Shown here piece by piece: positions 20,329 to 42,040 of a stretch of 64,000 bases of DNA (position 1 is the first letter of the stretch; the number at the start of each line of letters is the position of its first letter). Location: the NCBI GenBank assembly GCA_024279135.1, contig JAJRRU010000004.1:1-64000 (forward strand), read 5' to 3'. Below the pieces are notes generated by a model. The model did not search any database, was not told the DNA's origin, and saw nothing but the letters and a program-made list of their open reading frames with translations. The translations under genes were made by a program, and so were the position numbers. The DNA is from Alphaproteobacteria bacterium (GTDB lineage: Bacteria; Pseudomonadota; Alphaproteobacteria; Rhodospirillales; Casp-alpha2).

Positions 20329-21833
20329 ATTAAAATGTCCGGCAATTCTGCATTTCGACGTTTCATATACTCAAGTAATGCTTCATCCAGACCTGGGTCG
20401 ATGCCCGGGTCTTCGTACTCTTCGATCTTTTGTGATATTAGTGCCAAGGCACGCTCTGTGACAGAAGATCTGCCTTCTTCATCCCATTGTTCATAAGTGA
20501 TGGTGGTTTGCAGGTCAGGATCATAAAAGGCTGAACGGAATCTCTTTTGGGTGTGGTCGCAGCCGAAATAAATACTACCTGGTCCGACTTCATCAATAGC
20601 ATCCATGGCAAAGTCATCCTCGGCCATATCAAATCCGGCCATTAGGCGTTGAATAATGGTCAGTTGTTCCAGATCAGTGATGTATTTCAGATAACAGGTT
20701 GAAAGGGCTGACTCGATCCATCCGGCGCAATGGGTGAAAAAGTTACCACCAGCCAGTGCTGGCATCATAAAGGATTGGATGGATTGATAGCCCGCTTCGA
20801 TGTCAACCTCCATGGCGTTGGTCTTGAACCCCGTCATTCTGATGGGCAACCCGAGACGCCGGGCTATTTTAGACCCGGCGCAGGAAACCTGGTTAGCCTC
20901 CGCCGATCCATACAGGACACCGCCGGTTTTCATGGAGGTGATAGTGGTGGTTAAGCCGAACAAACAAGGACAGCCCGGCTGAACAAGCTGAACATAGGCA
21001 ATACCAGCCAATGCTTCGGCAACAATCTGAACGATTGTACCGGCCACGGTTATCGGTGTGCTGGCCCCTGTCATGATGAACGGAGACAGAATAATCGCCT
21101 GGTTATGGCGAGCATAAATCCGCATGGCATCCAGCATGGTAGTGTCCCATACCAGAGGAGAGGTGCAATTAAACAGAGATGTTGTGACCACGTTATTATG
21201 AACAAAGTCCTCGCCGAACGAGAGCTTGCACATCGTCATACAGTCTTCAGCCTGGGTTTGTGAGGAGATTGATCCCATGAACGGTTTGTCTGAATACCGT
21301 AAGTGGGCATATGTCATATCCAGATGACGTTTCGGTACAGGGATATCCACGGGCTCGACAACGGTGCCACCGCCACAATTTAGTGCGGGGCTCATTTGGG
21401 TGATTTTCAGCATTTTATGGAAATCATCAATTGTCGCGTACCGGCGTTCGCCACCTATATCGCGAACAAACGGTGAGCCGTATGATGGACCAAACAACAT
21501 ATGACGACCGCCAACCTTGGCACTGCGTTCCGGATTTCTGGCATGATGTGTATAGCTGCCAGGGACTTTTGATAATGCATCACGGATATAATCAGCGGAA
21601 AATCGCACCCGCTCATTCTCGACGGAAAGCCCGGCATCTTTCCATTGGGCAAGGGCTTTCTCGTCTCGGAAGTCACACCCTGTTTTTTCAAGAATCTGTA
21701 GGGCGCGCTCAATGAAATCATCCGCCTGTTCATCATCAATGATGTCATAGTGCGGTACTTTCTTTTCGAAGTTTGACAACATAACTGAAGGGCTTGATAC
21801 ATCCTTCTCGTTGCGACGTTTTCTTCTTGCCAT
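20325..21833 (-). CDS. MttB-family (trimethylamine methyltransferase-like) protein
   Basis: A 502-residue TIM-barrel protein of the MttB superfamily (COG5598), whose characterised members move a methyl group from a quaternary or tertiary amine to a corrinoid protein. Landmarks include RALQILEKTGCDF near the start, HARNPERS, the central VTVAGTIVQIVAEALAG-like segment (PITVAGTIVQIV) and the C-terminal GPGSIYFGCDHTQKRFRSAFY. There is no in-frame amber codon, so it is a non-pyrrolysine member like the glycine-betaine enzyme MtgB. It lies 24 bp downstream of the DMGDH-type flavoprotein gene in the same operon. No MtgC-type corrinoid protein is adjacent; substrate and methyl acceptor are unknown. 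Confidence 0.85.
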   Translation of the reverse strand: MARRKRRNEKDVSSPSVMLSNFEKKVPHYDIIDDEQADDFIERALQILEKTGCDFRDEKALAQWKDAGLSVENERVRFSADYIRDALSKVPGSYTHHARNPERSAKVGGRHMLFGPSYGSPFVRDIGGERRYATIDDFHKMLKITQMSPALNCGGGTVVEPVDIPVPKRHLDMTYAHLRYSDKPFMGSISSQTQAEDCMTMCKLSFGEDFVHNNVVTTSLFNCTSPLVWDTTMLDAMRIYARHNQAIILSPFIMTGASTPITVAGTIVQIVAEALAGIAYVQLVQPGCPCLFGLTTTITSMKTGGVLYGSAEANQVSCAGSKIARRLGLPIRMTGFKTNAMEVDIEAGYQSIQSFMMPALAGGNFFTHCAGWIESALSTCYLKYITDLEQLTIIQRLMAGFDMAEDDFAMDAIDEVGPGSIYFGCDHTQKRFRSAFYDPDLQTTITYEQWDEEGRSSVTERALALISQKIEEYEDPGIDPGLDEALLEYMKRRNAELPDILI

Positions 21834-21857
21834 AGTCCAGTCCTTTTAAGTGATTGC

Positions 21858-24314
21858 TTACATCCGGGAGCGAAGATGCTCTGGGTCATAGGGTGAGTCT
21901 GGAATTACAACAGCTTGCACATTCCCGTCGAAATACTCAATCTCAAGACAGGTATCGGCTTGCGCAAATGGTGTGTCCACATAAGCTAGCCCTACAACAC
22001 ACCCTTCATGGAAAGAATAATTAGCGGACGTAATATAACCAACTTGCTTCCCGGAAGAATACAGTCCTTCGTTTCCGGAGAGGACATCCTGAGCCTTTTC
22101 TGACTTAAAACTAACCAACCGTTTTTTTAATCCAGTTTTTTGTTCTGCCAGCAAGGCACTGCGACCTATAAAGTCTTGTTTGTCGAAGTCAATGAACCTT
22201 TCAAGGCCTGCTTGCAGGGCGCTGTGTTCGATATTGAGATCCCGACCGATGACCTTGTACGATTTCTCCAACCGCAGTCCATCGATAGCGCGGGACCCCA
22301 TAAACCGTGCATTAAATTCCTTGCCTGCATCCATCAGAGCACACACAAGATTACGTTGATAGGCAATTGGGTGATGCAATTCCCAGCCTAATTCGCCGAC
22401 AAAATTTACCCGCAGCATACGTACTTCAGGCACAAGAGCGACATCTGAAACCCTGCAATTCAACCATGGCGCTGCTTTATGGGAAATATCCTGATCGACA
22501 AGTTTTTCCAGCACGTGTCGTGCATCAGGTCCATGTACGGCAATAATTCCCCGTTCTTCAGAGACGTTCCGGATAGAAATACTACTTTCTAATGGTAAAG
22601 CTTTTGAAAGCACATCAAAGTCATGCTCACCACGGGTCGGTGATGAAACCAGATAGAATTGATCTGGTCCCAAATTAACAACCACAAACTCAGACAACAC
22701 TCCACCAGAAGGTGTTAACAGATGACACAACCTCAAGCCGCCTGTTTTGCGAGGAATGCGATTTGCCAGTAATTGATCAAGCCAGTCGCCAGCGCCATCG
22801 CCACTTATTTCAAACTTGACCATATAGGTCATTTCTTGAAGGGCGACACCCTCTCGTACAGCTTTTGCTTCTTGTTTAAGATTTTCGAAAAAACTGACTT
22901 CTTTATATTTAAAAGCTAGCTTTTCGTCCCTTGATTTCCTCTCGTCAGCAAACCACAGAGGAACTTCCCATCCGGCAACGGATCCCCAAACAGCACCTTT
23001 TTGATCAAGCACATCATAACAGGGTGTGGTTTTCTGGGGGCGGGCAGAGAACAATTGTTGCCCTGGAAAGCCATCATCAAACGAATGTGTATAGGTCTCG
23101 ATATTACGTGCCATGGTCCATGTTTTGGTGGCAAAATTACCAAATCGACGGATATCGAAATCTCGCAAATCAATCTCTGCCTCACCGCTAACAATCCACT
23201 GGGCTAAATAGTGCCCGACACCCGGACCGGCCTGAATACCACCAGCGAAACCTTCGGCCAGCCAGAAATTATCCAGCCCCGGCGCAGGCCCTATCATGGG
23301 GAAGCGATCCCCGGTCACATTAATGGGCCCCCGGATAATACTCTTGATGCCAACGTTACCGAATGAGGGCACCATCTTGATGCCTTCCTCGATCTGATCT
23401 TCAATATCCTCAATAGCCGGTGGCAAAAGATCAGCACCGAAAGATTTTGGTACACCATTAACGGCAAAATGTTCGATCTTGTCAGCTGTTTCATAAGGTC
23501 CAAAGATCATGCTATCGCCTTCTTCTCGGAAATAACCGCGAAATCTGTCGTCGCGAAGAATGGGAAGTTCCGGCAGGCCTGATTGTTTGCGATGCTGAAT
23601 TTCCGGCATGGCTTCACCAACCAGATATTGATGAACCAGCGGAATAGCTGGAATATTCAAGCCAACCATTTTACCGCTTTGCATGGCGTAGTTGCCTGTC
23701 GCCATGACAACTTTTTCAGCAATGATATCGCCTTTGTTTGTTTTGATACGCCAGTTTGCATCGGAGGTTTTCTCAAGCCCGAGAACTTCGGTCCGAAGGG
23801 CAATGCTACCCCCCAATGACCGGGCCTCTGTCACCAGCGACTGTGTGCAGTCTGCGGGTGCAGCATGACCATCCTCAAGGTTAATCAGACCACCAATTAT
23901 CCTGTTCTCAGGGTCTTCCAGGAGAGGCCAGTATTCCTGTACTTCACGCTTGCTTAGTAAATGAGCGTCAATGCCAAAAGATTTTGCGATGGGCATATAG
24001 GCCTTGTATTCATCAAGCCTGTCATTGGTTGACGCTAAACGAAGATTACCACACTTGTGCCAGCCAGCGGATAAAGCCGGGTGGGCTTCATAGCCTTCAT
24101 AAATTTTGATGGTTTTTTTAACAATTTCAGAAATTGAACGATGGGCCGTATAAATTGGTACAAGCCCGGCGGCATGCCATGTCGACCCGGCAGTCAGTTC
24201 AGTGCGTTCAATCAGTAATAAATCTGTTTGCCCAAGTCTCGCCAATGCATTCAAAATTGAGGCACCAACAATACCACCCCCGATAATCGCAATTTGAACT
24301 TTTCTGTCAGACAT
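21858..24314 (-). CDS. Dimethylglycine/sarcosine dehydrogenase-type FAD protein with GcvT domain
   Basis: An 818-residue two-domain enzyme. Residues 1-390 are a DAO-type FAD domain starting with AIIGGGIVGASI; the STWHAAGL segment holds the His that carries covalent FAD in the DMGDH/SDH family. Residues about 420-818 form the folate-binding GcvT-like part (GVALQEMTYMVKFEISGDGA, LGWELHHPIAYQ). Family members oxidatively remove an N-methyl group and pass formaldehyde to tetrahydrofolate. It is the first gene of an operon with the MttB paralogue, divergent from a nadX-like gene. A chain from a quaternary amine (MttB) to a secondary amine (this enzyme) is plausible. Confidence 0.9.
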   Translation of the reverse strand: MSDRKVQIAIIGGGIVGASILNALARLGQTDLLLIERTELTAGSTWHAAGLVPIYTAHRSISEIVKKTIKIYEGYEAHPALSAGWHKCGNLRLASTNDRLDEYKAYMPIAKSFGIDAHLLSKREVQEYWPLLEDPENRIIGGLINLEDGHAAPADCTQSLVTEARSLGGSIALRTEVLGLEKTSDANWRIKTNKGDIIAEKVVMATGNYAMQSGKMVGLNIPAIPLVHQYLVGEAMPEIQHRKQSGLPELPILRDDRFRGYFREEGDSMIFGPYETADKIEHFAVNGVPKSFGADLLPPAIEDIEDQIEEGIKMVPSFGNVGIKSIIRGPINVTGDRFPMIGPAPGLDNFWLAEGFAGGIQAGPGVGHYLAQWIVSGEAEIDLRDFDIRRFGNFATKTWTMARNIETYTHSFDDGFPGQQLFSARPQKTTPCYDVLDQKGAVWGSVAGWEVPLWFADERKSRDEKLAFKYKEVSFFENLKQEAKAVREGVALQEMTYMVKFEISGDGAGDWLDQLLANRIPRKTGGLRLCHLLTPSGGVLSEFVVVNLGPDQFYLVSSPTRGEHDFDVLSKALPLESSISIRNVSEERGIIAVHGPDARHVLEKLVDQDISHKAAPWLNCRVSDVALVPEVRMLRVNFVGELGWELHHPIAYQRNLVCALMDAGKEFNARFMGSRAIDGLRLEKSYKVIGRDLNIEHSALQAGLERFIDFDKQDFIGRSALLAEQKTGLKKRLVSFKSEKAQDVLSGNEGLYSSGKQVGYITSANYSFHEGCVVGLAYVDTPFAQADTCLEIEYFDGNVQAVVIPDSPYDPEHLRSRM

Positions 24315-28521: not shown

Positions 28522-28617
28522 ATGGGGGCAATACGTTATACCGAAGAATTCAAACGCGATACTGTTGCTCAGGCCACAGATTGCGGCTATTCCGTCAAGG
28601 AGGTTTCATTATTATAA
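28522..28617 (+). pseudogene. IS3-family orfA N-terminal scrap
   Basis: The 31 codons read MGAIRYTEEFKRDTVAQATD followed by CGYSVKEVS, the helix-turn-helix start of IS3-type OrfA proteins. The frame then meets TAA after two leucines, and no further OrfA or OrfB sequence is found. No terminal repeats are recognised. It marks a lost IS3 insertion 290 bp upstream of the B12-protein gene. Confidence 0.65.
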
Positions 28618-28905
28618 GCTGGTTATAAAAATTATAATTCCGTGGATAGATTTTTTGATTCTACATTTACATTAACTTGCATTAGCTAGGTTGATGGATG
28701 AGATGAGGAGTTTCTCGGAAGGAATGCCTAGTTCTCTGTATTATGACTGATGAGCGCATGGTCAGGACGGTTTGAATTTTGAGCTTATTAATTTAGGTAT
28801 CACGGTAGCCTGAAATATTCAATTCAGATAAAATGCAGGCTCGGATAGTTTCTATATTGGGGATGCCGTGTTGAATAAATTTGTATTTTAGGGTGGAGCT
28901 GAACC

Positions 28906-30669
28906 ATGCTGCAATTGAAACGGCGAGATTTGATTCAAGAGGCAGAGTTGGTGCCATACGGGAATTTGCTTGCAGCCGGTCGTATGATTGCCCGCGATTG
29001 GCAAGTCGGTCCATGTGCATTCCTCGAATACACGGACCACACTTCCGAAGCCAGTTACAAGCGGGCGCAGATGGCCGCAGGCAATTTGATGCAGCATGCC
29101 CATGTTGGATTCCGGGAGATTTCAAAAAGCGTTGAAGCCTGCAAAGAGATCTATGAGCGGTGTAACAGACATGGCGCCGTCGTTGATCGTTACGGACTGT
29201 GTCTTGATTGGTCGATGGGCTATCCGGCTGATGTGCGGAAAAACCGCCCGCGTGGCACCGGGATGATCCTCAATGGTCCGGAGGATTTCGTTAAAATAAC
29301 CTCTGCTGCACCCGTGGCACCACATTTTGGCGATTTCGTTCTGGGCTTGCCGAATGCCGTTGAGAATACCAAGGCGGCGCTCGCTGCGGGATCGACATCA
29401 CTTGGAAATCTGGGCCAGTACTTTACCTTTCGCCTGCCGCACTGGGATGATGACGTAGCGACCACCGAGGCGACAATTACCGCTCTGGGGTTGATTGTGG
29501 CGCAAGATGTAGAGGTGTTAATCCATTCAAATTTGGATGATGGGTTCGCCGCCATGTTCATGGATCTGAGTTCGTGCCTGGGGATGGTGTTGATTGAAAA
29601 ATGGATCATTGAAGATCTGATAGGCGGGCAGGTTTCCCATTGTTTTGGGCATCATTTTGCGGACCCGGTGATCCGGAATGCCTTTCAAAGTGCTTTAAAC
29701 AGGGTATCAACGACACCGGGAACCATGATTTTCGGCAGCACAGTCAGCTATCGTTCAACACCGGCGGGCAATTATGCCAGTCTCGCGAGCTACATGCTGG
29801 CTGATATCATCGGACAACGCCGGCACCCGAGCGGACATGCGCTCAATCCCGTTCCGGTAACCGAAAATGAGCGCATTCCCGATATCGATGAAATAATTGA
29901 CGCACAAATTTTTGCCCATCGACTGGTAGAACATGCCACATATTATGAGCCGATGCTGGGGTGGGATAAAGTTGATCAGATCGCCGACACCATCGTTGAG
30001 GGTGGCCGTCGCTTCCGGGATAATGTTCTCAAAGGATTGCATAACGCAGGCATTGATACGAATGATGCAATGGAGCTAATGCTCGCTATACGCCGGTTGG
30101 GTCCAAAGCGTATGGAAAAATTATTTGGTGTTGGGCTGCTTGATACTGACAATAATAACGGACGTATTCCACAGGTTCCTACAACCACAATTGTTGACTT
30201 AAATGACATGTCGATGGCCGTCATTGAAAATGCCGACATCACCATCGTGGATGAAATTTCCCGGGCTGGCCTGAAATGCATAATAGCAACAACCGATGTT
30301 CATGAACACGGGAAGTACCTTGTTGAGAGGGTGTTATCCCATCTTGGCGTGGATATTATTGATGGTGGAGTGGCTGTGGACCCTGATGATCTGGTCAGAA
30401 CTGCGAAACTCAATGACATCGATTTTATCGCCCTGAGCACATATAACGGGATAGCTCTTAGATATATTGAGGAATTGAAAGGTGAAATGAAGAGGGCCTC
30501 TCTCAATCTTCCAGTCCTTGTCGGCGGTAAGCTGAACCAGATACCGGCGGATACAAATTCCAGCTTGCCGATTGATGTCACTTCAGAGATTCGTGCGCTA
30601 GATGTTGTGGTGTGTGATGAAATAGAAATGATGATACCGGCACTTCATATGCTGGCTCGAGAAACCTAA
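28906..30669 (+). CDS. Fused glutamate-mutase-E-like / cobalamin-binding protein
   Basis: A 587-residue cytoplasmic protein. Residues about 455-580 form a B12-binding domain: DVHEHG (464-469) is the DxHxxG base-off motif with His466 as cobalt ligand, S511 lies in the SxL-equivalent position (ALSTYNG) and VGGKLN (539-544) is the nucleotide-tail motif. Residues about 90-410 resemble the TIM barrel of methylaspartate (glutamate) mutase E, notably AAGSTSLGNLGQYFTFRLPH and NPVPVTENERIPDIDEI. Glutamate mutase normally has separate E and S chains; here both are on one chain, with the B12 part C-terminal. The start has a GGTGGAG ribosome site. The next gene starts directly after its stop. It may be an isomerase of an amino acid or its derivative; a methyl-carrier role is less likely given the mutase-like barrel. 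Substrate unknown. Confidence 0.75.
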   Translation: MLQLKRRDLIQEAELVPYGNLLAAGRMIARDWQVGPCAFLEYTDHTSEASYKRAQMAAGNLMQHAHVGFREISKSVEACKEIYERCNRHGAVVDRYGLCLDWSMGYPADVRKNRPRGTGMILNGPEDFVKITSAAPVAPHFGDFVLGLPNAVENTKAALAAGSTSLGNLGQYFTFRLPHWDDDVATTEATITALGLIVAQDVEVLIHSNLDDGFAAMFMDLSSCLGMVLIEKWIIEDLIGGQVSHCFGHHFADPVIRNAFQSALNRVSTTPGTMIFGSTVSYRSTPAGNYASLASYMLADIIGQRRHPSGHALNPVPVTENERIPDIDEIIDAQIFAHRLVEHATYYEPMLGWDKVDQIADTIVEGGRRFRDNVLKGLHNAGIDTNDAMELMLAIRRLGPKRMEKLFGVGLLDTDNNNGRIPQVPTTTIVDLNDMSMAVIENADITIVDEISRAGLKCIIATTDVHEHGKYLVERVLSHLGVDIIDGGVAVDPDDLVRTAKLNDIDFIALSTYNGIALRYIEELKGEMKRASLNLPVLVGGKLNQIPADTNSSLPIDVTSEIRALDVVVCDEIEMMIPALHMLARET

Positions 30670-32610
30670 ATGAATATCGATACGTCAGTGTTGTCCAACC
30701 CGTTACTGTTAGCACTCGCTCCCGGCGTATTGATTTTGTCATTATGCATAATAACGGGGTTACGCGCTCGCCTCTGGCGTCGAGGTCGAAAACAGCCGGG
30801 TTTGCGGTTTTGCAATTTGTTATTGGTCCCAAAACGCTATCTTGTTGATCTCCACAATATCGTAGCGCGTGACACCCTCAGCGCACACATGCACGCCGCG
30901 AGCGCCGCTGGCTTCTGCCTGGCATTATTTTCCCTGCTGGTTTATTCCGTTGTATCCGGGATTGATGGAGAAAAACTGGCTGGCTGGGTTACTCTTGTCT
31001 CGTCCATTATCATGTTGGGCGGCATCATAGCGGTGTATGGACGTCGTTACGCACACCCTGTGGGGACAAGCGGGCAATTATCAAAGGGCATCTGGTTACA
31101 GCAAATTTTTCTACTCTTTATCGTCGCGGTATGCATGTTTGTAATAGGCCTGCTTGCCGTTTTCGATAGCTGGATTACTTCAGAATTCATTCTGTTACGG
31201 GTTTTGGTAACAGGGATTTTAATAACTACGGTTTGCGTTCTTGGCGTTACAGCCATGTATGGCGGTCTTCTGAAGCATGTTGTCGCGGGTGTGTTTCACC
31301 TTGCATTTCATCCTCGTCCCGAACGATTTAGAGAGGGGGGGATTTCAAGCGCCCTACAGCCGCTTGATTTCGAACAAGGTCGGCTTGGCATAGAGAAAGC
31401 AGAAGATTTCAAATGGAACATGCTGTTGGGGTTTGACGCCTGTGTGCAATGCGGACGGTGTGAAGTCGCATGCCCGGCATTTGCCGCAGGTATGCCTTTA
31501 AATCCAAAGAAAATGATTCAGGATTTCGTGGTCGGAATGCAAGGAGGGAAGATATGCTTTCCTTACGCCGGAAGACCACACCCCGGAGTTGATCCGAAAA
31601 CCCAACAGCATATGAAATCCGGGACTATACTTCCCGGTTTGGTGCCGGGCGAAACAATCTGGTCCTGTACGACCTGTCGCGCGTGCGTTCAAGAATGCCC
31701 GATGATGATCGAACATGTTGATGCTGTTATTGATATGCGTCGTTTTCAAACTCTGGAGCTCGGTAATTTACCGAGCATTGCCCCCGCAACCTTGCAAATC
31801 ATTCGGGAAACAGACAATGCTGCCGGGCGTTGTCTTTCTGAACGCCTGGACTGGACTGCCGGGCTTGAGCTGAATAAATTTTCGACGGTTAAGACAATGG
31901 ACGTATTGCTATGGCTTGGAAACGGTGCCTTCGTCCAACGCAACCAACGTACGTTACGAGCACTGGTTACGCTTCTCAACCGGGCGAATGTCCGCTTCGC
32001 GGTATTGGCAGATGAAGAACTCGACAGTGGTGATTTAGCACGACGGCTCGGAGATGAAGTGACCTTTCAAAATCTTGCCCGCCGTAATATTGAGATACTC
32101 TCAAAGTACCGGTTCGATACAATTGTTACGGCGGATCCTCACGATTTCCATAGCCTGAAAAATGAATACCCTGCATTTGGTGGGCACTATACAGTGAAAC
32201 ACCATACGACATTTCTCTGCCAATTGATTGATCGTGGAAAGCTGGCCAAGAGTGCTTTCAATCAATCCCCTGCATCTGTGACATATCATGATCCATGTTA
32301 TTTGGGTCGGTACAACGGGGAGGTTGTTATGCCGAGGCGATTACTTCGGTTTGCCGGCATGGAGCTGATAGAAATGAAACGGGCAGGTTTAAATTCTCGT
32401 TGCTGTGGCGGCGGCGGCGGCTCGCAGTATACTGATATTCCCGGCGAGCGCCGCATTGCAGATATTCGTATGGAGGATGCCAGAGATACAGGGGCATCCA
32501 CACTTGTAGTAGCCTGCCCCAATTGTGCGGTAATGTTGGAAGGTACGACTGGCAAGCGGTTAGCGGTTAAGGATATCGCGGAGATTCTTGCCGAGAGGTT
32601 GGAGAGTTAA
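30670..32610 (+). CDS. Membrane Fe-S oxidoreductase, DgcB-like
   Basis: A 646-residue protein with about five membrane segments in residues 10-215, then two 4Fe-4S cysteine sets (CVQCGRCEVACP near 258 and CTTCRACVQECP near 337) and a C-terminal CCG-type domain (HDPCYLGRY, RCCGGGGGS, ACPNCAVML). This is the plan of DgcB-type proteins that take electrons from ETF and pass them to the quinone pool in dimethylglycine and related N-demethylation systems; HdrD/GlpC are more distant relatives. It starts immediately after the B12-protein stop and is directly followed by the ETF alpha-like gene, so one electron-transfer unit is clear. Confidence 0.88.
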   Translation: MNIDTSVLSNPLLLALAPGVLILSLCIITGLRARLWRRGRKQPGLRFCNLLLVPKRYLVDLHNIVARDTLSAHMHAASAAGFCLALFSLLVYSVVSGIDGEKLAGWVTLVSSIIMLGGIIAVYGRRYAHPVGTSGQLSKGIWLQQIFLLFIVAVCMFVIGLLAVFDSWITSEFILLRVLVTGILITTVCVLGVTAMYGGLLKHVVAGVFHLAFHPRPERFREGGISSALQPLDFEQGRLGIEKAEDFKWNMLLGFDACVQCGRCEVACPAFAAGMPLNPKKMIQDFVVGMQGGKICFPYAGRPHPGVDPKTQQHMKSGTILPGLVPGETIWSCTTCRACVQECPMMIEHVDAVIDMRRFQTLELGNLPSIAPATLQIIRETDNAAGRCLSERLDWTAGLELNKFSTVKTMDVLLWLGNGAFVQRNQRTLRALVTLLNRANVRFAVLADEELDSGDLARRLGDEVTFQNLARRNIEILSKYRFDTIVTADPHDFHSLKNEYPAFGGHYTVKHHTTFLCQLIDRGKLAKSAFNQSPASVTYHDPCYLGRYNGEVVMPRRLLRFAGMELIEMKRAGLNSRCCGGGGGSQYTDIPGERRIADIRMEDARDTGASTLVVACPNCAVMLEGTTGKRLAVKDIAEILAERLES

Positions 32611-33822
32611 ATGCCAAAAAACAAGGATCGAAGGATCCGACGTGACCCACGTAGAGAAAGAATTGCACGGCAGGGAAAGTCGGTGGGCGGGTCTGAGCAT
32701 TTTGATATTGATGGCAGAGCGGATCGAGTACGAAAGTTCCCACATTTCTGCCGAAGTGTCACTTATGGTGAGCGGGTACGGATTAATCCGTTTGCTGCCA
32801 CCCAGAATATCCGGTGCTCGAAATCTGAATCACAGCCAAAGAAACACGAATCAAAATCAGATATTAAACCCAGCATCATCACAGACCCATCCTACTTTGT
32901 CGTTGTCGTTCCTGATTTGCTCGCCGGACGCCCCACAGACCACGATCGATTGACTTTTTCAGCTGCTCGCCAACTGGCAAGTGATACTGATGGGGCTGTA
33001 CTGGCTGTTCTTTTCGAAGACTCTGATTTCGATTTCGGCAAACTCGGAGTTGACCGGATCATGAAATTCAGCACCGTTTTGCTTGCGGGATATTCACCTG
33101 AATACCGTGCAGATGCAATTGTTTCTATTGCACAGGAGACACCTGTTCGTCACATTCTTTTTCCCGACAGTAAATTCGGGAGTGGTGATTTGGGGCGTCG
33201 GGTAGCCGCAAGATTGGGGTGCCGCCCAGCATCAGGGGTTCGGCAAATCGGGGAAGGCCAGATTGTCTGTAAAAGTGCTGATCCATTGCTGGAGATACAT
33301 CGCTCTCTTTGCACAATTATGTTGATGGACCCTGAAATTGATGTGGAAACGACTCAAATATATTGTGAAGGACGGGAATTAAACGCACCACTTGTGGATA
33401 TATCAATGCCGAAATTGCAGGACGGCGGCCTGGAACAGGTTGATGTGTCTGGCATTCCCCTGTCAGAGGCTTCGTTAATCCTTGCTGCTGGAGCTGGGGT
33501 CTCCGATTGGCAGGAGTTCTATAATCTGGCTGAATCACTTGGCGCCGCTATCGCAGGCAGCCGTGTCGTCGTCGACAAGGGATTTGTGGGACGTGATCGT
33601 CAGGTTGGGGCCAGTGGTGTTTCAGTTGCCGGACGTTGTTACATTGCACTTGGCATATCCGGCGCACCCCAACACTTACAGGGGATCGTTGATTGCGATT
33701 TGGTAATCGCGGTGAACACCGACCCGGGATGTCCCATGTCCTTGCGTGCCGATCTCATGATTGTTGGAGACGTAAACTCAATAATGCCGATATTAAGGGA
33801 AATTATCAGTGACAGGCTTTGA
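32611..33822 (+). CDS. Electron-transfer flavoprotein alpha-like subunit
   Basis: A 403-residue protein. The C-terminal FAD domain is typical of ETF alpha: AGSRVVVDKGFVGRDRQVG, then SVAGRCYIALGISGAPQHLQ and VNTDPGCPM. The first 80 residues are a polar, strongly basic extension (KNKDRRIRRDPRRERIARQ) not found in housekeeping EtfA but seen in DgcB-linked versions. It should bind FAD with the beta-like subunit, whose start overlaps its end by 14 bp, and deliver electrons to the DgcB-like protein upstream. Confidence 0.88.
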   Translation: MPKNKDRRIRRDPRRERIARQGKSVGGSEHFDIDGRADRVRKFPHFCRSVTYGERVRINPFAATQNIRCSKSESQPKKHESKSDIKPSIITDPSYFVVVVPDLLAGRPTDHDRLTFSAARQLASDTDGAVLAVLFEDSDFDFGKLGVDRIMKFSTVLLAGYSPEYRADAIVSIAQETPVRHILFPDSKFGSGDLGRRVAARLGCRPASGVRQIGEGQIVCKSADPLLEIHRSLCTIMLMDPEIDVETTQIYCEGRELNAPLVDISMPKLQDGGLEQVDVSGIPLSEASLILAAGAGVSDWQEFYNLAESLGAAIAGSRVVVDKGFVGRDRQVGASGVSVAGRCYIALGISGAPQHLQGIVDCDLVIAVNTDPGCPMSLRADLMIVGDVNSIMPILREIISDRL

Positions 33823-34651
33823 AAAGCAAAACGGCCAGAGACTCTTGGTTGCCGTCCTGATTTCAACAGGACGCAACCCTGTATCAGGGGTCGTTCGACG
33901 GGCAGAACTTGATGCGCGTGCGCTTGAAATTGTCCTTGCACTCGATACGGATGTGCAGTTTGAGGTTATTCATGCCGGAGACCCGGAGAACCCGGTCCTG
34001 AAGGACTACCTAGGTATGGGCCTCTCTGACATAACAGTGCTTCCATGTGATCCGGACGATGACCCGGCAAGCAGCCTTGTGTGGTACCTGAATCGCATCC
34101 GCCCTGACGTGGTTTTGACAGGCAATCGTGCCGAAACAGGAGAAGGCTCTGGTTTTATTCCTTATGCAGTTGCCCAGCAACTCGGGGCATTGTTTGTCGC
34201 TCAAATTACCGCACTGAAATTTCTTGCAGATAGCAAATTGCAGTTAAGCCAATCCATACCAGGTGGCTACCGCAGAAGATTGTATGCCCAGCCACCAATT
34301 GTTGGTAGCGTCGATGGCTCTGCTCTCCCGCCACGCATTCCAGCCTATGCACGATCACAACGGGGCAAAATTCATATCGTGGAAGCTCCTCGTCAAAATG
34401 ATGCCCAGTCGGCAGATTGGAATATTTTGACTGGGCGTAATAAACCTAAGAAAATTACCCGCTATCATGGTGAAACCATGGCAGAGCGACTGGACTTTGC
34501 GTGGGGGCAGGATCGTACTGGTGGTACGACAATCGAGGCACGCAAAAACCCCCGTAATGGGGCAGACGCTATACATCGTGCCCTCGGCGATGCCGGTCTG
34601 CTGGACCGCGCGGGTAAGGGTGACAATAGCAAGCTTACAGACATTACCTGA
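33809..34651 (+). CDS. Electron-transfer flavoprotein beta-like subunit
   Basis: A 280-residue ETF beta-type protein using a GTG start inside the alpha gene. Landmarks are GRNPVSGVVRRAELDARALE (beta-fold start), VVLTGNRAETGEGSGFIPY (nucleotide-binding loop) and AVAQQLGALFVAQITAL. The recognition loop is diverged from housekeeping EtfB, which suits a dedicated partner of the DgcA-like enzyme. It receives electrons from the demethylase flavoprotein encoded after a 158-bp gap in which I see no terminator. Confidence 0.85.
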   Translation: MTGFEKQNGQRLLVAVLISTGRNPVSGVVRRAELDARALEIVLALDTDVQFEVIHAGDPENPVLKDYLGMGLSDITVLPCDPDDDPASSLVWYLNRIRPDVVLTGNRAETGEGSGFIPYAVAQQLGALFVAQITALKFLADSKLQLSQSIPGGYRRRLYAQPPIVGSVDGSALPPRIPAYARSQRGKIHIVEAPRQNDAQSADWNILTGRNKPKKITRYHGETMAERLDFAWGQDRTGGTTIEARKNPRNGADAIHRALGDAGLLDRAGKGDNSKLTDIT

Positions 34652-34809: not shown

Positions 34810-36849
34810 ATGTCAAATCTTGAAATTCTTTTAAAGCCATTCCGGCTCCGCCATCTTGAACTGAAAAATCGCGTCATAACCACATCTCACGCACCTGCTT
34901 ATGCTGAAGACGGAATGCCTCAGGAACGCTACCAGCTTTACCAGGAGGAGCGAGCTAAGGGTGGAGTTGCAATGATCATGTTCGGAGGCTCATCCACGGT
35001 GTCGCCCGACAGCCCGGCCACCTTTGGCCAAATATGTATCGACGATGACAGGGTGATACCTTATCTGCGGGAACTTGCTGACCGAATCCATTATTACAAT
35101 ACTGCCATCATTTGTCAGATCACTCATATGGGTCGGCGATCGCGTTGGGATATCGGAAGCTGGCTACCTTCCGTAGCACCTTCATCGAGATGGGAGCCCG
35201 AACACCAATCCTTTCCAAAAGAAATGGAAGATTGGGATTTTCGTCGTATTGTAGATGACTTTGTGGCTGCAGTCCGACGTTGTCGTGAAGCAAAACTGGA
35301 TGGCGTCGAATTATCTTTCAATGCCCAACACCTCATTCCCCAATTTTGGTCACCAGGCGTCAATCACCGTACCGATGACTATGGCGGCAGCCTTGAAAAT
35401 CGAATGCGGTTTGGCTTCGAGATACTTGATGCAGTGCGAAAAGAAATCGGTGATGCGTTTATTGTCGGCATACGATTATCGGTTGATGAGTTGCTCGACA
35501 ATGGCCTCTCGGATGCAGATTGCCGAGAGATAGCCGTTATATTGGCGCGATCCGGAAAAGTCGATTTTTTTAATGTCGTGGGCGGGCAACCATCTGATTT
35601 TCCATCTCATGCGGTGAACATGGCTGGCATGGCCTTCCCCGTTGCGCCATTCCTCCATTTAGCTAGTGCCTTAAAATCCGTTGTTGAGATACCTGTAATA
35701 CAGGCCCATCGGATAAGCGATCTCCATACTGCGGCTAAAGCGGTTGAGGACAGACATCTCGATCTTGTCGGGCTTACCCGACCCCACATGGCTGACCCGT
35801 ATATCATGAAAAAATTGATGGAGGGCCGGGTCGACGACATCCGTCAATGCATTGGTGCAAACTATTGCATAGATCGCCTTTTTGCTGGCAAGGAGGCGTT
35901 GTGCATTCAAGCTCCGGCAACTGGGCGGGAAGCTACGATGCCCCACATTATTGCCAAGGCCAGTGAAAAGAAGCAGGCGGTGGTGATTGGCGGCGGTCCA
36001 GGTGGGTTAGAAGCGAGCAGGGTTCTGGCCGAGCGGGGTCATCATGTGGTCCTGTTTGAAGCAACTGAGCACCTGGGAGGCCAGGTTAAACTCGCCGCTT
36101 GCGCAACATGGCGTAACGGGTTGGATGGTATCACCCGCTGGCTTGTCAGCCAGATTGACAAGCTTGGCGTTATTGTTCATCTGTCCACGCTTGCTGACGC
36201 TGATAGGGTGAAGGCTGAGAAACCCGATATTGTTATTGTTGCAACGGGGGGGCATGCCAACAAAGGTTACTTTAAGGGCAATGATCTTGCTGTTTCCACT
36301 TGGGATATCATTTCCGGTCAAATTGAACCGGGTGAGAATGTGTTGCTATATGACGACAATGATGGCCATCAGGGAATGTCTTGCGCCGAGGTGCTGGCAA
36401 AAAAGGGAAGCAAGGTGGAAATTGTGACACCTGACCGCTTTACCGGTCGAGACGTTGGTGGAACCAGTTTTCCTGTATATCTGCGAAATCTGTATCAGAC
36501 TGATACGATCTTCTCCCCCGATCTCAAGTTAATCGAAATTCAACGTGAGGGGAATCTATTGATCCCAGTGCTGCGGAATATTTATTCGGGTATTGAGGAG
36601 GAGCGTGCTGTAGATCAAGTAGTTTGCGAACATGGATCACTTCCAAACGATGAGCTGTATTTTGCGCTCAAGAATTATTCGACCAACCTTGGTGAAGTTG
36701 ATTACTACGCCTTACGTGAAAATAGCCCTCAAAACGTTACAACCAACCCCGATGGAGAATTCGTTTTGTTCCGGGTTGGTGACGCAGTTTCAAGTCGCAA
36801 CATCCATGCTGCAATATTTGATTCACTGCGTCTTTGCAAGGACTTGTAA
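34810..36849 (+). CDS. TMADH/DgcA-like FMN, Fe-S and FAD oxidoreductase
   Basis: A 679-residue enzyme of the trimethylamine-dehydrogenase/dienoyl-CoA-reductase family. Residues 1-345 form the old-yellow-enzyme barrel (LKNRVITTSHAP, DYGGSLENRMRF), and residues about 390-650 the FAD/NAD-type domains (AVVIGGGPGGLEASRVLAE). The Fe-S loop reads CIGANYCIDRLFAGKEALC: the second of the four usual cysteines is Ala, leaving three, so the cluster may be altered or use another ligand. DgcA-type proteins oxidatively demethylate tertiary amines and reduce a partner ETF, here encoded directly upstream. Substrate unknown; dimethylglycine or an N-methyl cyclic amino acid are options. Confidence 0.88.
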   Translation: MSNLEILLKPFRLRHLELKNRVITTSHAPAYAEDGMPQERYQLYQEERAKGGVAMIMFGGSSTVSPDSPATFGQICIDDDRVIPYLRELADRIHYYNTAIICQITHMGRRSRWDIGSWLPSVAPSSRWEPEHQSFPKEMEDWDFRRIVDDFVAAVRRCREAKLDGVELSFNAQHLIPQFWSPGVNHRTDDYGGSLENRMRFGFEILDAVRKEIGDAFIVGIRLSVDELLDNGLSDADCREIAVILARSGKVDFFNVVGGQPSDFPSHAVNMAGMAFPVAPFLHLASALKSVVEIPVIQAHRISDLHTAAKAVEDRHLDLVGLTRPHMADPYIMKKLMEGRVDDIRQCIGANYCIDRLFAGKEALCIQAPATGREATMPHIIAKASEKKQAVVIGGGPGGLEASRVLAERGHHVVLFEATEHLGGQVKLAACATWRNGLDGITRWLVSQIDKLGVIVHLSTLADADRVKAEKPDIVIVATGGHANKGYFKGNDLAVSTWDIISGQIEPGENVLLYDDNDGHQGMSCAEVLAKKGSKVEIVTPDRFTGRDVGGTSFPVYLRNLYQTDTIFSPDLKLIEIQREGNLLIPVLRNIYSGIEEERAVDQVVCEHGSLPNDELYFALKNYSTNLGEVDYYALRENSPQNVTTNPDGEFVLFRVGDAVSSRNIHAAIFDSLRLCKDL

Positions 36850-36854
36850 CCGAT

Positions 36855-37814
36855 ATGCAGATGGTGAACGCCGAAGATATAAGTCGCGTCATGGAGTACC
36901 CGGGACTGGTTGCAGCCCTGCGCGAGGCACACTTGCAGGACATCTTGATTGAGCCTGAAATTCTCTTGTCACGTCCCTTGGATGGCGAAAGGCAAAACAA
37001 CTTCAATGTGTTTCCCGCATGGCAGGACGGTGTTGTATTCGGCGCAAAGCTGGTTTCGCTGTTTCCTGAAAATCTTCACAAAGCCGAAAGGCTTCCAATG
37101 GTTCAGGGTGTCTATGTTCTTTTTGATGGCAAGAATGGTTCGCCGGTTGCCGTTATCGATGGTACGGCATTAACCTATTGGAAAGCGGCTGCTGATTCAG
37201 CTCTTGGTGCTTCCCTGCTGGCCCGGAATGACATACAGAGTATGGTGATGGTGGGGGCAGGTGCGCTCTCGCCACATGTGATCTCCGCGCACCTGGCTAT
37301 CCGTCCCTCCCTGTCCAAGATCCGTATCTTTGATATCGATACCCAACGGGCGGAAGCGCTGGTTCAGCAATTCAACTCGCTAAACATGGATATCGCAGTT
37401 TCAGACACGCTAGAGCGTGATGTTGGAAATGCAGACCTGGTGTCATGTGCAACCACGGCACGCAAACCTGTCATCTGTGGTGGCTGGCTCAAACCCGGAA
37501 CCCATGTGGACCTCATCGGGGGGTGGACACCGGAGATGCGTGAAGTCGATGATGAAGCAATCAGGCATGCCAGTTTATATGTTGATTCTATTCTATTAGG
37601 TAAACGTTGCGGCGATATATCTAATCCATTGTCACGTGGAATTATTAGTGAGAGTGACATTCTTGGTGATTTGTTTGATTTGTGTCGGGGCTCAGTATCT
37701 GTTCGGCAAAATGAGAACAAAACCACAATATTCAAAAACGCTGGAGGCGGGCATCTTGATTTAATTGTTGCCCGCTATCTACTTGCTAAAATCAACTTAC
37801 CAGACATCGTGTGA
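36855..37814 (+). CDS. Ornithine cyclodeaminase/mu-crystallin family protein
   Basis: A 319-residue NAD(P)-binding protein. The N-terminal substrate part includes LLSRPLDGERQNNFNVFPAW split by a short loop and VFGAKLVSLFPEN; the Rossmann motif MVGAGALSPH (near residue 138) follows the usual ALTYWKAAADSALGAS helix; STWL-like DLIGGWTPEMREVDD comes later. Family members form proline from ornithine, or reduce delta-1-pyrroline-2-carboxylate and other cyclic imines. A TTG start at 36834 would overlap the upstream gene; the ATG at 36855 is preferred. In this operon an imine reductase or cyclic-imino-acid role would fit a demethylation product. Confidence 0.86.
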   Translation: MQMVNAEDISRVMEYPGLVAALREAHLQDILIEPEILLSRPLDGERQNNFNVFPAWQDGVVFGAKLVSLFPENLHKAERLPMVQGVYVLFDGKNGSPVAVIDGTALTYWKAAADSALGASLLARNDIQSMVMVGAGALSPHVISAHLAIRPSLSKIRIFDIDTQRAEALVQQFNSLNMDIAVSDTLERDVGNADLVSCATTARKPVICGGWLKPGTHVDLIGGWTPEMREVDDEAIRHASLYVDSILLGKRCGDISNPLSRGIISESDILGDLFDLCRGSVSVRQNENKTTIFKNAGGGHLDLIVARYLLAKINLPDIV

Positions 37815-37832: not shown

Positions 37833-39365
37833 ATGACCAGACGTACAGGTGGAGCGGCAAATACCCGGAAAATTCGGTCTCATGGCAATGCTATTGATCA
37901 ACTGCCATTTAAACAAGTGATCAACCCGTTCACACCGCTCGAAATTGTTTCAGCGGATGAATTGGAGAGTATTCATCAGACTTCTCTACGCATTCTCAAA
38001 GAGATCGGCATTAATTTTTTGCTTCCAGAGGCTCGAGAAATTTTTCGATGCGTAGGAGCTGATATTGATGGCGAGAGGGTCCGGCTTGATCCCGAATTGG
38101 TAGAAGCCTCAATTGCCTTGGCACCCCCCAGTTTCAAAATTCACGCCCGAAACCCAGCTCACTCTCTGATCTTCGGTGATAAGTACATGAACTTTGGCAC
38201 AATTGGTGGCCCGCCGTGGGTAACTGATCAAGACCGCGGAAGACGCTATGGCAACTATGAGGATTTCTGCGATCTTTTGCGTCTCGGCCAATCCCTGAAC
38301 ACAGCTCATCTAACTTCTGGCTACCCTGTAGAACCGGATGATATTGCGGTTCCGGTCCGGCACCTTAAAGCGACCATGGCGATGATCGAGTTAACCGATA
38401 AGGTTTTTAGAATTTATGCATCAAGCCGGGAGCGAATTCTCGACCAGTTAACAATGGTTCGAATTATGTGGGATATGACAGAGGAAGAGTTTGAAAATCA
38501 TCCGTGTGTCCATACAAATGTCAACGCAAATACCCCTATGCAGTACGATATCCCGATGACATGGGGGATAATTGAGATGGCTAAACGGAACCAACCTGTA
38601 GGGATTACACCATTTACATTAGCGGGTGCAATGGCGCCCGTGACGATAGCGGGGGCTCTGGCTCAACAAAATGCCGAAGCATTGGCAGGGATCACTTTGA
38701 CTCAATTGGTGCGCCCTGGTGCGCCGGTGATTTATGGTGGTTTTACATCGAACGTAAACATGAAAACAGGTTCTCCTTCCTTCGCAACCCCTGAGTTCGT
38801 CAAAGCGGCCATTATTACCGGACAGTTAACGCGTCGTTATAAGTTACCATTTCGCTCATCCAACACGAGCACATCCAATATTCCAGACGCCCAAAGTGCC
38901 TATGAATCCCAGACGTCTATCTGGTCGAGTGTCCTTAGTGGCGTCAATTATCTGCAACACGCACACGGGTGGATGGAAGGAAGCCTGTGTGCGTCGTATG
39001 AAAAATATATTCTCGATGCTGAGATGCTTCAGATGATCACCGAAGTCATGAAACCAGTCATAGTTAATTCAGATGAACTGGCATTTGATGCAATTCGCGA
39101 AGTGGGCCCTGGAGGCCATTTCTTTGGTGTTTCCCACACCATGGAACGCTACGAAACGGCATTCTATCACCCCTTGTTATCGGATCATCGCAATTTTGAA
39201 CCGTGGGCTGAAGATGGCGCTCAGGATGCCACAACCCGTGCTAATCACATCTATAAGAAATTGTTGTCAGATTACGAACAACCTCCCCTCAATCTAGCGA
39301 TACAGGAGGCGCTGAATACCTTTGTCAGGAAACGTGAAGATGAGGGGGGAGCTCATGTCTATTGA
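37833..39365 (+). CDS. MttB-family (trimethylamine methyltransferase-like) protein, second copy
   Basis: A 510-residue MttB-superfamily protein, clearly diverged from the first (20.3 kb). Shared landmarks: SLRILKEIGINFLLPEARE, HARNPAHSLIFG, a central APVTIAGALAQQNAEALAG and C-terminal GPGGHFFGVSHTMERYETAFY. No amber codon interrupts the frame, so pyrrolysine is not used. It starts 18 bp after the cyclodeaminase-family gene and is part of the operon headed by the B12 protein, the only cobalamin-binding protein in the window. Whether that protein serves as its methyl carrier, or an unlinked MtgC-like protein does, cannot be told. Confidence 0.85.
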   Translation: MTRRTGGAANTRKIRSHGNAIDQLPFKQVINPFTPLEIVSADELESIHQTSLRILKEIGINFLLPEAREIFRCVGADIDGERVRLDPELVEASIALAPPSFKIHARNPAHSLIFGDKYMNFGTIGGPPWVTDQDRGRRYGNYEDFCDLLRLGQSLNTAHLTSGYPVEPDDIAVPVRHLKATMAMIELTDKVFRIYASSRERILDQLTMVRIMWDMTEEEFENHPCVHTNVNANTPMQYDIPMTWGIIEMAKRNQPVGITPFTLAGAMAPVTIAGALAQQNAEALAGITLTQLVRPGAPVIYGGFTSNVNMKTGSPSFATPEFVKAAIITGQLTRRYKLPFRSSNTSTSNIPDAQSAYESQTSIWSSVLSGVNYLQHAHGWMEGSLCASYEKYILDAEMLQMITEVMKPVIVNSDELAFDAIREVGPGGHFFGVSHTMERYETAFYHPLLSDHRNFEPWAEDGAQDATTRANHIYKKLLSDYEQPPLNLAIQEALNTFVRKREDEGGAHVY

Positions 39366-39436: not shown

Positions 39437-40969
39437 ATGGACAACTTGAATAATCGGGATTTTGATGTGGTCATCATCGGAGGGGGGATCAATGGTGCCG
39501 CATCGGCGCAGCATTTGTCAGCAGCAGGTTACTCGGTTATGCTTGTGGAAAAGGCTGATTTTGCCTCGGGTACCAGCAGCACCTCCAGCCGGCTTCTGCA
39601 TTGTGGAATAAGATATCTAGTTCCCGGCAGTTCGGTATTTGAATTCGTTCGCCACCCCTCCCGTTTTCTGAATGGCTCCCGGATGGCACGCGATGCCATG
39701 CGATGTCGAAGCCAGTTTGTCAACGAGTCCGCAGAAAGAGTTAAATCATTTAATCTCTATTACCCTGTTTATCAAGAGGACCCCTTTAAGCCGTGGCAGG
39801 TTGACTTGGCTTTCAAGTTTCTTGATTGGCTGGGGCCCAGGGACGTCCCGCTTGATTATCAGAGGTTCCCTGTCTCGTCGGTTGCCAAGACTCCAATGCT
39901 CAAGTGGCTGCGTGACCAGGATAAGCTTACTGGAGTCGTTCGTTTTCGTGAGTACGTCTTTGATTGGCCGGAACGAATTGCTATGGATACGATCCTTGAC
40001 GCCGAACGTCTCGGCGCCGAGGTCTGTAATTATACTGCCGCAGTGGCTATAGAATCCCTTCCCGACAAACGCTGGCGTATTGAATTGGAGGATACCCGGG
40101 GCGATCAGGAACGAGTCAGTGTTCAGGGTTCCGTATTAATTAATATGGCCGGAATATGGATAGACCAGGTTAACCAGTTGTCCAGTAAGCCGGTTGGCCG
40201 CAAGATCACGGGCACAAAGGGTAGCCATATAGTCGTCAAACTACCACCAGAGTGTGCCGATTTCGGGATCGCGGCCATGCATCGGGAGAAGGAGCCTTTT
40301 TATTGCATACCCTGGCGTGGGCTGCATTTCTTTGGCCCGACAGAAACATTATTCGAGGGCAATATCGACGATATAAGGCCCAGTGAAGAAGAAATATTGT
40401 GGCTGTTGGAAGAGGCAAATTATCTTTTTCCTGGTATGGGTCTGCGGCGCTCGGACATACTCCATTCCTGGTCAGTAGTACGCCCTTTGACCTATGACCC
40501 GGATCAGCCTCGCGGCGCACGAGCACGAATACTATATGATTTGGCTGACGAAGGATTAAGCAACGCCTTCACAATGACAGCAGGCCCAATCTTCACGCAT
40601 CGGGTCGCAGGGCATGAGGTCCTTCAGGCGGTAGAGGGGAAGATCAGGCCATCGGGCTCACCCCAATCGCTCTCATATGCCCCGAGGATATTTTCAGGGA
40701 ACAAGAACTCACCAAGCTTGCTTGGGGACTGTGACCAGATCAGGTTATCTGATGTCCAGCATGTTGCCCAAAATGAGCACTGCTACACCCTGATGGATAT
40801 TCTTTGTCGTCGGTTGGGAGTTCATTGGACAGAGAGTATGGCATTCGATGCAGCGCAAGAAGCTGCCGAAGTTGCAGGAGCCGAATTGGGTTGGAATCAG
40901 GAGCGGGTTGATAAAGAAGTCGGAGATTATCGCGAGTACCTGACTAGATATTTTCTGGGTCCATTTTGA
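39437..40969 (+). CDS. GlpD-like FAD-dependent dehydrogenase
   Basis: A 510-residue FAD enzyme of the glycerol-3-phosphate dehydrogenase family. The dinucleotide motif VVIIGGGINGAASAQHL is at residues 10-26, followed by EKADFASGTSSTSSRLLHCG and the KGSHIVV segment before the substrate domain. The C-terminal helical domain typical of GlpD is present (residues about 420-500). No glpF/glpK/glpR lie nearby, and it closes the B12/ETF/MttB operon 71 bp after the MttB gene, so a different hydroxy or amino substrate is likely. Membrane association, as in GlpD, is possible. Confidence 0.82.
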   Translation: MDNLNNRDFDVVIIGGGINGAASAQHLSAAGYSVMLVEKADFASGTSSTSSRLLHCGIRYLVPGSSVFEFVRHPSRFLNGSRMARDAMRCRSQFVNESAERVKSFNLYYPVYQEDPFKPWQVDLAFKFLDWLGPRDVPLDYQRFPVSSVAKTPMLKWLRDQDKLTGVVRFREYVFDWPERIAMDTILDAERLGAEVCNYTAAVAIESLPDKRWRIELEDTRGDQERVSVQGSVLINMAGIWIDQVNQLSSKPVGRKITGTKGSHIVVKLPPECADFGIAAMHREKEPFYCIPWRGLHFFGPTETLFEGNIDDIRPSEEEILWLLEEANYLFPGMGLRRSDILHSWSVVRPLTYDPDQPRGARARILYDLADEGLSNAFTMTAGPIFTHRVAGHEVLQAVEGKIRPSGSPQSLSYAPRIFSGNKNSPSLLGDCDQIRLSDVQHVAQNEHCYTLMDILCRRLGVHWTESMAFDAAQEAAEVAGAELGWNQERVDKEVGDYREYLTRYFLGPF

Positions 40970-41119: not shown

Positions 41120-42040
41120 TTATCCAAATAATGTATCCTGATACTCCTGATGCAACCACTTGCGAAAGGCTACAATTTTGTGTTTTTTGGCCATCCAATT
41201 CTGACACACAATATTATAGGATAAAGCAACCGGTATAGCGTAATCAAAGGGGCGAACTAGGCGACCGGAAGCTAAATCGTCGGCAACAAGAAGCTTGCTG
41301 CTTAAAGCTACGCCGTGGCCGTCTACAGCAGCTTGGGTCGCCATGCTGGCAACGCTGAAAACGGGGCCTCTCGTTGCATCACACCCTTCCATGTTGGTGT
41401 CATCTAGCCACATTTGCCAGTTTGGATAACGTATCTTGCCAAATTCCATTTTTTCGATGTGCAATAATGTGTAATGGTGAAGGTTGCCTGGGTTCTGGAG
41501 GCCGGTTTTTCCCTCAAGCAACTTTGGGCTGCAAACTGGGAAAATAATATCGTTGTTCGTCAGGTTGTTGACGTAATATTCCTTATAAATATTGCAGCCA
41601 TACAATATTCCCACGTCGACATCTTCAATAGTGAGGTTCGGATCATTAATCTGGGCGTGAATTTGAACATCAAACTCAGGGCAAATTTTGGAAAATTTGG
41701 CAAGCCGAGGAGCCAGCCACTTGGAGCACAATGTAGGCGGTGCAATAACTTTCAAGGTTTGATTGACGCGTTTGTCCTGAGCTTCTGATACGACTTCGGC
41801 TAACCGGTCGAAGGCCTCAGTTAGGCCCGGAAGGCAATCCTTACCGACATCAGTCAATACCATGAGGTTGCCATTTCGAGAAAACAGTTTCACGCCGAGA
41901 TAACTCTCGAGGGACTTCATATGATGGCTTATCGCTGCAGGAGTGACGCACAATTCGTCTGCTGCAAGTGTCAGGCTTAGATGTCGTGCAGTCGCCTCGA
42001 ATGAGCGAAGAGAATTTAGCGAGGGTAATCGACGTTTCAC
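41120..42040 (-). CDS. LysR-family regulator (GcvA-like)
   Basis: A 306-residue LysR-type regulator. The N-terminal winged helix (residues 5-65) reads LRSFEATARHLSLTLAADEL and CVTPAAISHHMKSLE, close to the GcvA/AmpR branch. The effector domain (about 95-300) starts with LKVIAPPTLCSKWLAPRLAKF. The gene is divergent from the MmgE/PrpD-family gene and the following peptide-type transporter operon, its probable targets. Two related AT-rich direct repeats lie in the shared gap. Confidence 0.9.
   Translation of the reverse strand: MKRRLPSLNSLRSFEATARHLSLTLAADELCVTPAAISHHMKSLESYLGVKLFSRNGNLMVLTDVGKDCLPGLTEAFDRLAEVVSEAQDKRVNQTLKVIAPPTLCSKWLAPRLAKFSKICPEFDVQIHAQINDPNLTIEDVDVGILYGCNIYKEYYVNNLTNNDIIFPVCSPKLLEGKTGLQNPGNLHHYTLLHIEKMEFGKIRYPNWQMWLDDTNMEGCDATRGPVFSVASMATQAAVDGHGVALSSKLLVADDLASGRLVRPFDYAIPVALSYNIVCQNWMAKKHKIVAFRKWLHQEYQDTLFG

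Follow-up and report, generated by a model that had tools for sequence, protein, structure and literature searches.

The 587-residue protein encoded at positions 28906-30669 (+ strand) of the window, by which we mean the whole 64-kb stretch of DNA analysed here, is best explained, with a probability of roughly 60%, as a single-chain class I AdoCbl radical mutase of a new family whose substrate or product would be shared with an imine reductase. Its assignment to the class I AdoCbl-dependent radical mutases, which draws on the fold, the B12 motifs and a glutamate motif of the kind that contacts the adenosyl ribose, is very likely correct. The family is new, being uncharacterised and having a barrel without detectable sequence similarity to glutamate mutase, and the mutase, as we call the protein for short, was detected by fold comparison where sequence profiles fail. 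Databases label family members only as 'cobalamin-dependent protein' or 'hypothetical protein', and our literature search found no paper on the family.

To our knowledge, few AdoCbl mutase reactions have been described, and every new one has led to a new catabolic route. If the proposed reading is true, the family would represent a B12 radical reaction and a catabolic route for nitrogen-containing compounds not described before. Members occur in several families of Alphaproteobacteria, a predicted structure and a recurring partner reductase are in hand, and culturable hosts (Shinella, Mesorhizobium, Rhizobium and Gemmobacter) allow the search for such a reaction in amine catabolism to be put to the test directly.

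Domain architecture and predicted fold of the protein

The open reading frame is a real gene with a good start: it runs from an ATG at 28906 to a TAA at 30667-30669, and a Shine-Dalgarno-like sequence, AGGGTGGAG (28890..28898, +), can be read directly 7 nt 5' of the ATG. No Rfam element, and hence no cobalamin riboswitch, was found across the 64-kb window, and a scan for promoters and terminators gave no enrichment over shuffled sequence.

The C-terminal ~130 residues (455-587; 30268..30666, +) form a base-off/His-on cobalamin-binding Rossmann domain, as the earlier note had proposed from its DxHxxG (DVHEHG) and GG motifs. PF02310 matches residues 462-545 above its cut-off (E 2.2e-11), and the motifs are conserved in homologues. 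These comprise DxHxxG, read as D464-V-H466-E-H-G469 (30295-30312, +), STYNG beginning at S511 (30436-30450, +) and the GG pair G540-G541 (30523-30528, +). All 33 aligned homologues are identical at D464, V465, H466, E467, S511, Y513, N514, G515, G540 and G541. The base-off B12 signature is therefore present, with D464, H466, G469 and GG conserved and with STY at the SxL position.

The preceding region, residues 1-432 (28906..30201, +), is assigned to an AdoCbl-mutase-type TIM barrel with a helical linker on the basis of AlphaFold2 and Foldseek. In sequence searches, the first ~430-450 residues matched no Pfam or NCBIfam model, the glutamate mutase E profile PF06368 found nothing in the mutase open reading frame or anywhere else in the window's genome (G000), and profile-profile comparison (hhalign) of the barrel with true GlmE proteins revealed no similarity. 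Membership of PF06368 was dropped on these three results. A profile of 34 homologues retrieved from the PDB only B12 domains, plus weak chance-level matches; a weak adrenodoxin match of the barrel profile (E about 0.02) was likewise discarded as chance.

A full-length AlphaFold2 model, built from an alignment of 33 homologues, reached a pLDDT of 92.2 and a pTM of 0.92, the latter pointing to two domains in a defined arrangement. Its Foldseek matches in the PDB were methylmalonyl-CoA mutases, ornithine aminomutase and glutamate mutase E (best E 3.5e-14). As the shared B12 domain might account for these matches, residues 1-432 were also modelled by themselves (pLDDT 92.4, pTM 0.93) and used for a second search. 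Ranks 1-7 of 350,542 chains were then all AdoCbl mutases (GlmE, LAM, MCM and OAM), with E-values from 2.1e-9 to 2.3e-5, and unrelated TIM barrels followed from 1.5e-4. Rank 1 was the glutamate mutase GlmE chain 1cb7_B (E 2.1e-9, TMq 0.61), and 6h9e_B gave a TMq of 0.65; at 12% identity, such TM-scores (0.61-0.65) fit either distantly related or convergent TIM barrels. The earlier comparison of this region with methylaspartate mutase E thus holds at the level of fold, where GlmE ranks first, and fails at the level of sequence, where the profile test against methylaspartate mutase E and the Pfam, NCBIfam and profile-profile searches are negative.

Since, by sequence, the B12 domain matches MetH best among PDB entries, and a gene for the corrinoid methyltransferase MttB lies in the same operon, the protein might instead be a corrinoid methyl carrier or methyltransferase serving that MttB, its B12 domain accepting a methyl group from MttB and its barrel handing this group to folate or another acceptor in the manner of MetH or MttC-type proteins. 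Two MttB homologues in Gemmobacter caeruleus (L052; 1.9 kb away and further) and one at L061 (7.5 kb away) would also fit. We regard this as improbable: the other loci lack a nearby MttB, the barrel ranks among radical mutases while MetH is matched by Foldseek through its B12 domain only, and the four-helix cap domain PF02607 that precedes such a B12 domain is absent from the Pfam search. In addition, the genome has a separate gene for a B12-binding protein of 231 residues, some 5 kb from a further MttB, and an AdoCbl-ribose glutamate motif would serve no role in a methyl carrier.

Read as a radical mutase, the protein resembles several known systems. It has in common with glutamate mutase (GlmE + GlmS, EC 5.4.99.1) the barrel fold, the base-off B12 domain and the E-x3-IP motif, in which E320 would be the ribose glutamate, but differs in its 12% identity, the lack of profile similarity, its gene neighbours and the apparent absence, judged by eye, of the arginine claw. 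The B12 domain is fused C-terminally here, whereas in glutamate mutase it is separate or N-terminal. The earlier statement that the known enzyme has separate E and S chains does not hold universally, as two pseudomonadotal loci (L087:1474-3405 and L088:1477-4080) encode true GlmE with an N-terminal GlmS-like B12-binding region in the same chain. Methylmalonyl-CoA and isobutyryl-CoA mutases likewise carry a barrel and, after it, a C-terminal B12 domain on a single chain, and gave the best full-length Foldseek E-values; the window protein is shorter, its barrel sequence is dissimilar and it has no MCM Pfam match.

Candidate active-site residues and substrates

Residues E320-N-E-R-I324-P325 (29863..29880, +) resemble the adenosyl-ribose glutamate motif of GlmE and OAM. 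E320, R323, I324 and P325 are invariant in all 33 homologues, and the AlphaFold2 barrel model places E-x3-IP at the final barrel strand, directly before a long helix. The GlmE counterpart in the 1cb7 sequence is E330-AIG-IP, to which E320 was matched by eye at the expected place; in ornithine aminomutase it is E338-GRN-VP, as read from mutagenesis primers (PMC4413051). In both GlmE and ornithine aminomutase the motif glutamate contacts the adenosyl ribose (PMC3958899).

The PLP-dependent enzymes lysine 5,6-aminomutase (LAM) and ornithine 4,5-aminomutase (OAM) have the barrel fold of the window protein and a conserved ribose glutamate, to which E320 may correspond; they give the next-best folds after GlmE. 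A PLP- and B12-dependent aminomutase of this type would also give the partner reductase described below a parallel in 2,4-diaminopentanoate dehydrogenase. In aminomutases the PLP lysine lies 11 residues past the axial histidine (K629/H618, K144/H133; PMC3958899); this His+11 position is Leu477 in the window protein and is not lysine in the aligned homologues, which makes such an enzyme very unlikely.

The second comparison concerns the substrate. The residues considered typical of glutamate mutase E are E171 and the glutamate-binding arginines R66, R100 and R149, the arginines being read from the 1cb7 sequence. At the matching strand ends, located by eye from predicted secondary structure, the family appears to have no arginine. 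Residues near the strand ends that are invariant or nearly so are H64, D101, H140, D143, N168, N209, D211 and D212. The apparent lack of arginine together with invariant Asp, Asn and His at strand ends suggests a cationic rather than a dicarboxylate substrate, and an amino or imino compound with a positive charge is, on this evidence, a plausible one; glutamate is an unlikely substrate.

These residues also bear on whether the family could share the function and ancestry of glutamate mutase or those of 2-methyleneglutarate mutase, a single-chain enzyme of nicotinate fermenters. The latter enzyme, from Eubacterium barkeri, is one chain that uses AdoCbl and has a C-terminal B12 domain, an architecture that we liken to that of the window protein by description rather than by sequence. 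GlmE being the closest fold speaks for a dicarboxylate mutase, as does the aspartate-dehydrogenase-like protein encoded at some rhizobial loci. Against it, R66, R100 and R149 appear to have no counterpart, His, Asp and Asn standing in their place in the by-eye mapping, nor could genes for methylaspartase or methylitaconate be recognised in the vicinity. We therefore consider a dicarboxylate mutase unlikely, though it is the least unlikely of the alternatives weighed here. That the protein has no catalytic role and acts as a B12 sensor or scaffold, an idea that the lack of a known substrate would allow, is the most improbable of them: 136 alignment columns are identical in at least 31 of the 33 homologues, many of them polar residues close to barrel strand ends, and the gene is found amid metabolic genes.

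For the radical mutase that we favour, a mechanism can be outlined. AdoCbl would be bound in the base-off state, its cobalt ligated from below by H466, and the B12 domain would presumably cap the TIM barrel at its mouth, where E320 would grip the adenosyl ribose and promote Co-C homolysis. The resulting 5'-deoxyadenosyl radical could then take a hydrogen from the substrate, and a 1,2-rearrangement would proceed in the barrel without PLP. The substrate or product, putatively an amino or imino compound, may be interconverted by the imine reductase, before or after this step. The domains, the fold, the motif conservation and the linkage to the partner gene come from the analysis itself, whereas AdoCbl use, domain closure, substrate class and the sequence of steps are inferred. 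Put together, we tentatively propose a PLP-independent AdoCbl mutase family of aerobic alphaproteobacteria that has a P5CR-like or OCD partner and rearranges cationic amino or imino acids, of which a demethylated betaine would be an example. The earlier suggestion of a rearrangement of the demethylated product is kept in modified form, as the rearrangement of a nitrogen compound in a catabolic route; that the compound is a demethylated product is not established.

Gene neighbourhoods and the proposed imine reductase partner

About 60 full-length homologues were found, at 42-58% identity, in Rhizobiaceae, Phyllobacteriaceae, Brucellaceae, Paracoccaceae, Acetobacteraceae and metagenome-assembled genomes (MAGs). 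Full-length relatives are almost exclusively alphaproteobacterial, with one gammaproteobacterial MAG, and the gene is carried by 4 of 398 evenly drawn Pseudomonadota genomes, all 4 of them Alphaproteobacteria. Neighbour counts are based on tblastn and mechanically called open reading frames in sampled genome collections. In two MAGs the mutase gene is repeated in tandem, four to five diverged copies forming an array (L057:641-9637 and L058:878-8400), and the aligned copies retain the B12 and E-x3-IP motifs; P5CR-like genes follow the L057 array. Probable gene remnants were also seen, namely a stop-bearing mutase fragment in a relative (L007:1501-1737, G031) and, in Rhizobium lentis, a piece of the C-terminal region that lies next to an IS66 transposase (L077:7746-8711).

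The earlier note had drawn its functional inference from the operon in the window. The dgcB-etfAB-dgcA set is absent at all of the about 60 homologous loci, and a search for dgcB in 60 relatives found no homologue adjoining a mutase. The census, in which the mutase occurs in dozens of genomes without ETF/DgcAB neighbours, rules out the operon as a conserved unit and overturns the inference; a P5CR-like gene recurs instead. Homologues of dao-dgcA-ocd lie 6-10 kb upstream of the mutase at a single locus, L039. The one other close pairing of MttB and mutase that was seen is in Gemmobacter caeruleus, where a LysR gene and two genes of the MttB family lie 1-5 kb upstream of the mutase (L052:4931-8107).

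In rhizobia the mutase lies within a conserved uncharacterised catabolic cluster, found at L073:8151-23634 and about 30 rhizobial loci. Its first part encodes a KstD-like flavoprotein, a cupin, the aspartate-dehydrogenase-like protein, an alpha/beta hydrolase, the mutase and an SDR, followed by 2-oxoacid dehydrogenase E1/E2, NIPSNAP and a ~285-residue protein whose cyclophilin-like match is borderline at most. The last part comprises a carnitine-dehydrogenase-like 3HCDH, an SDR, a P5CR-like reductase, GntR and a branched-chain-type (liv-type) ABC transporter. In most rhizobial loci the P5CR-like gene is 1-7 kb from the mutase, on the opposite strand.

Outside the Rhizobiales cluster, the P5CR-like reductase is the one recurring neighbour of the mutase. 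In ten lineages, delimited at 70% identity, the two genes are adjacent, meaning that they overlap or lie at most 18 bp apart edge to edge; stop and start codons overlap at L080, L062 and L082, and Pfam domains confirm P5CR at L078, L080 and L082. As a control, the same scan found no P5CR-like gene at seven unrelated mutase-free loci of 6-20 kb each. The partner is missing at L033, L035, L052 and L053 and in the window, and the whole of the window's genome (G000) lacks it, containing just one ProC-like gene of 23% identity; a genome of the same genus retains the P5CR-like gene adjacent to the mutase. An upstream Ldh_2 gene at L061 was considered as a third type of imine reductase (DpkA) and dropped, its nearest NCBIfam families being ureidoglycolate and sulfolactate dehydrogenases.

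The sole imine-reductase-type gene near the window mutase encodes an OCD/mu-crystallin family protein (36834..37814, +; PF02423; NF004793 at 303 bits against a cut-off of 322), which is closest to Pyr2C/Pip2C (ketimine) reductases (PDB 6t3e, Pyr2C reductase; 4bv8, ketimine reductase). One other lineage, Telmatospirillum (L071), has an OCD-family gene next to the mutase, on its downstream side, and the proteins from these two loci are only 29% identical. On the simplest reading, which rests on these two loci, one imine reductase has been replaced non-orthologously by another. From the neighbourhoods, the mutase may have a substrate or product in common with an NAD(P)H-dependent imine reductase, P5CR-like or, in the window, OCD.

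The operon in the window and the probable origin of its mutase gene

As the earlier note stated, the mutase gene is joined without a gap to a DgcB-like gene, whose ATG falls on the base directly after the mutase stop codon (30670), and the families that it named downstream (ETF, DgcA-like, OCD/cyclodeaminase and MttB) are confirmed by Pfam and NCBIfam. The first gene encodes a DgcB/EtfD-like membrane Fe-S protein (30670..32610, +; DUF3483, 4Fe-4S and CCG). It is followed by etfA, for the electron transfer flavoprotein alpha subunit (32611..33822, +; PF00766/PF01012, NF051845 below cut-off), and by etfB, for the beta subunit (33809..34651, +; PF01012), which overlaps etfA by 14 bp. After a 158-bp AT-rich gap comes a DgcA/TMADH/OYE-type FMN and FAD oxidoreductase (34810..36849, +; PF00724), whose matches include the structures of histamine dehydrogenase and trimethylamine dehydrogenase. 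Beyond the OCD gene lie those for a non-Pyl MttB-family corrinoid methyltransferase (37833..39365, +; PF06253; PDB 9yce, glycine betaine methyltransferase), a DAO/GlpD-like FAD oxidoreductase (39437..40969, +; PF01266 and PF16901) and a LysR regulator of the GcvA subfamily (41120..42040, - strand; NF008352 above cut-off). The downstream genes thus belong to the families of DgcAB/ETF and MttB-type N-demethylation modules. Such modules are not linked to the mutase family elsewhere, and the dgcA-mttB pair recurs without a mutase in relatives (L106-L108).

In a maximum-likelihood tree, the window protein falls within a rhizobial-type clade (fork support 100/99), and the copies from its own genus and family (G001, G002, G015, G008 and G025) form part of a different clade. 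Just upstream of the mutase there is an N-terminal remnant of an IS-type transposase (HTH_Tnp_1, PF01527, 1.2e-4; 28525-28614, +). The tree position, the transposase remnant and the mutase-free dgcA-mttB pairs fit the acquisition of a mutase gene in front of an existing N-demethylation module, and we consider it probable that the gene was acquired horizontally in this genome and placed ahead of the N-demethylation/ETF module. In G+C content and GC3 the genes do not stand out from their neighbours, which indicates that any transfer was not recent.

A phage-type integrase gene was also noted in the window at 16056-17372. In one relative, an arginase/agmatinase-family gene (L106:2523-3572, - strand) lies between the mttB and dgcA homologues, a hint that this variant may involve a guanidino compound. 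Elsewhere in the window (20325-24314, - strand), a second MttB-family gene adjoins one for an 818-residue DAO and GcvT-like protein related to sarcosine/TMAO-type demethylases, the two together making up another N-demethylation pair.
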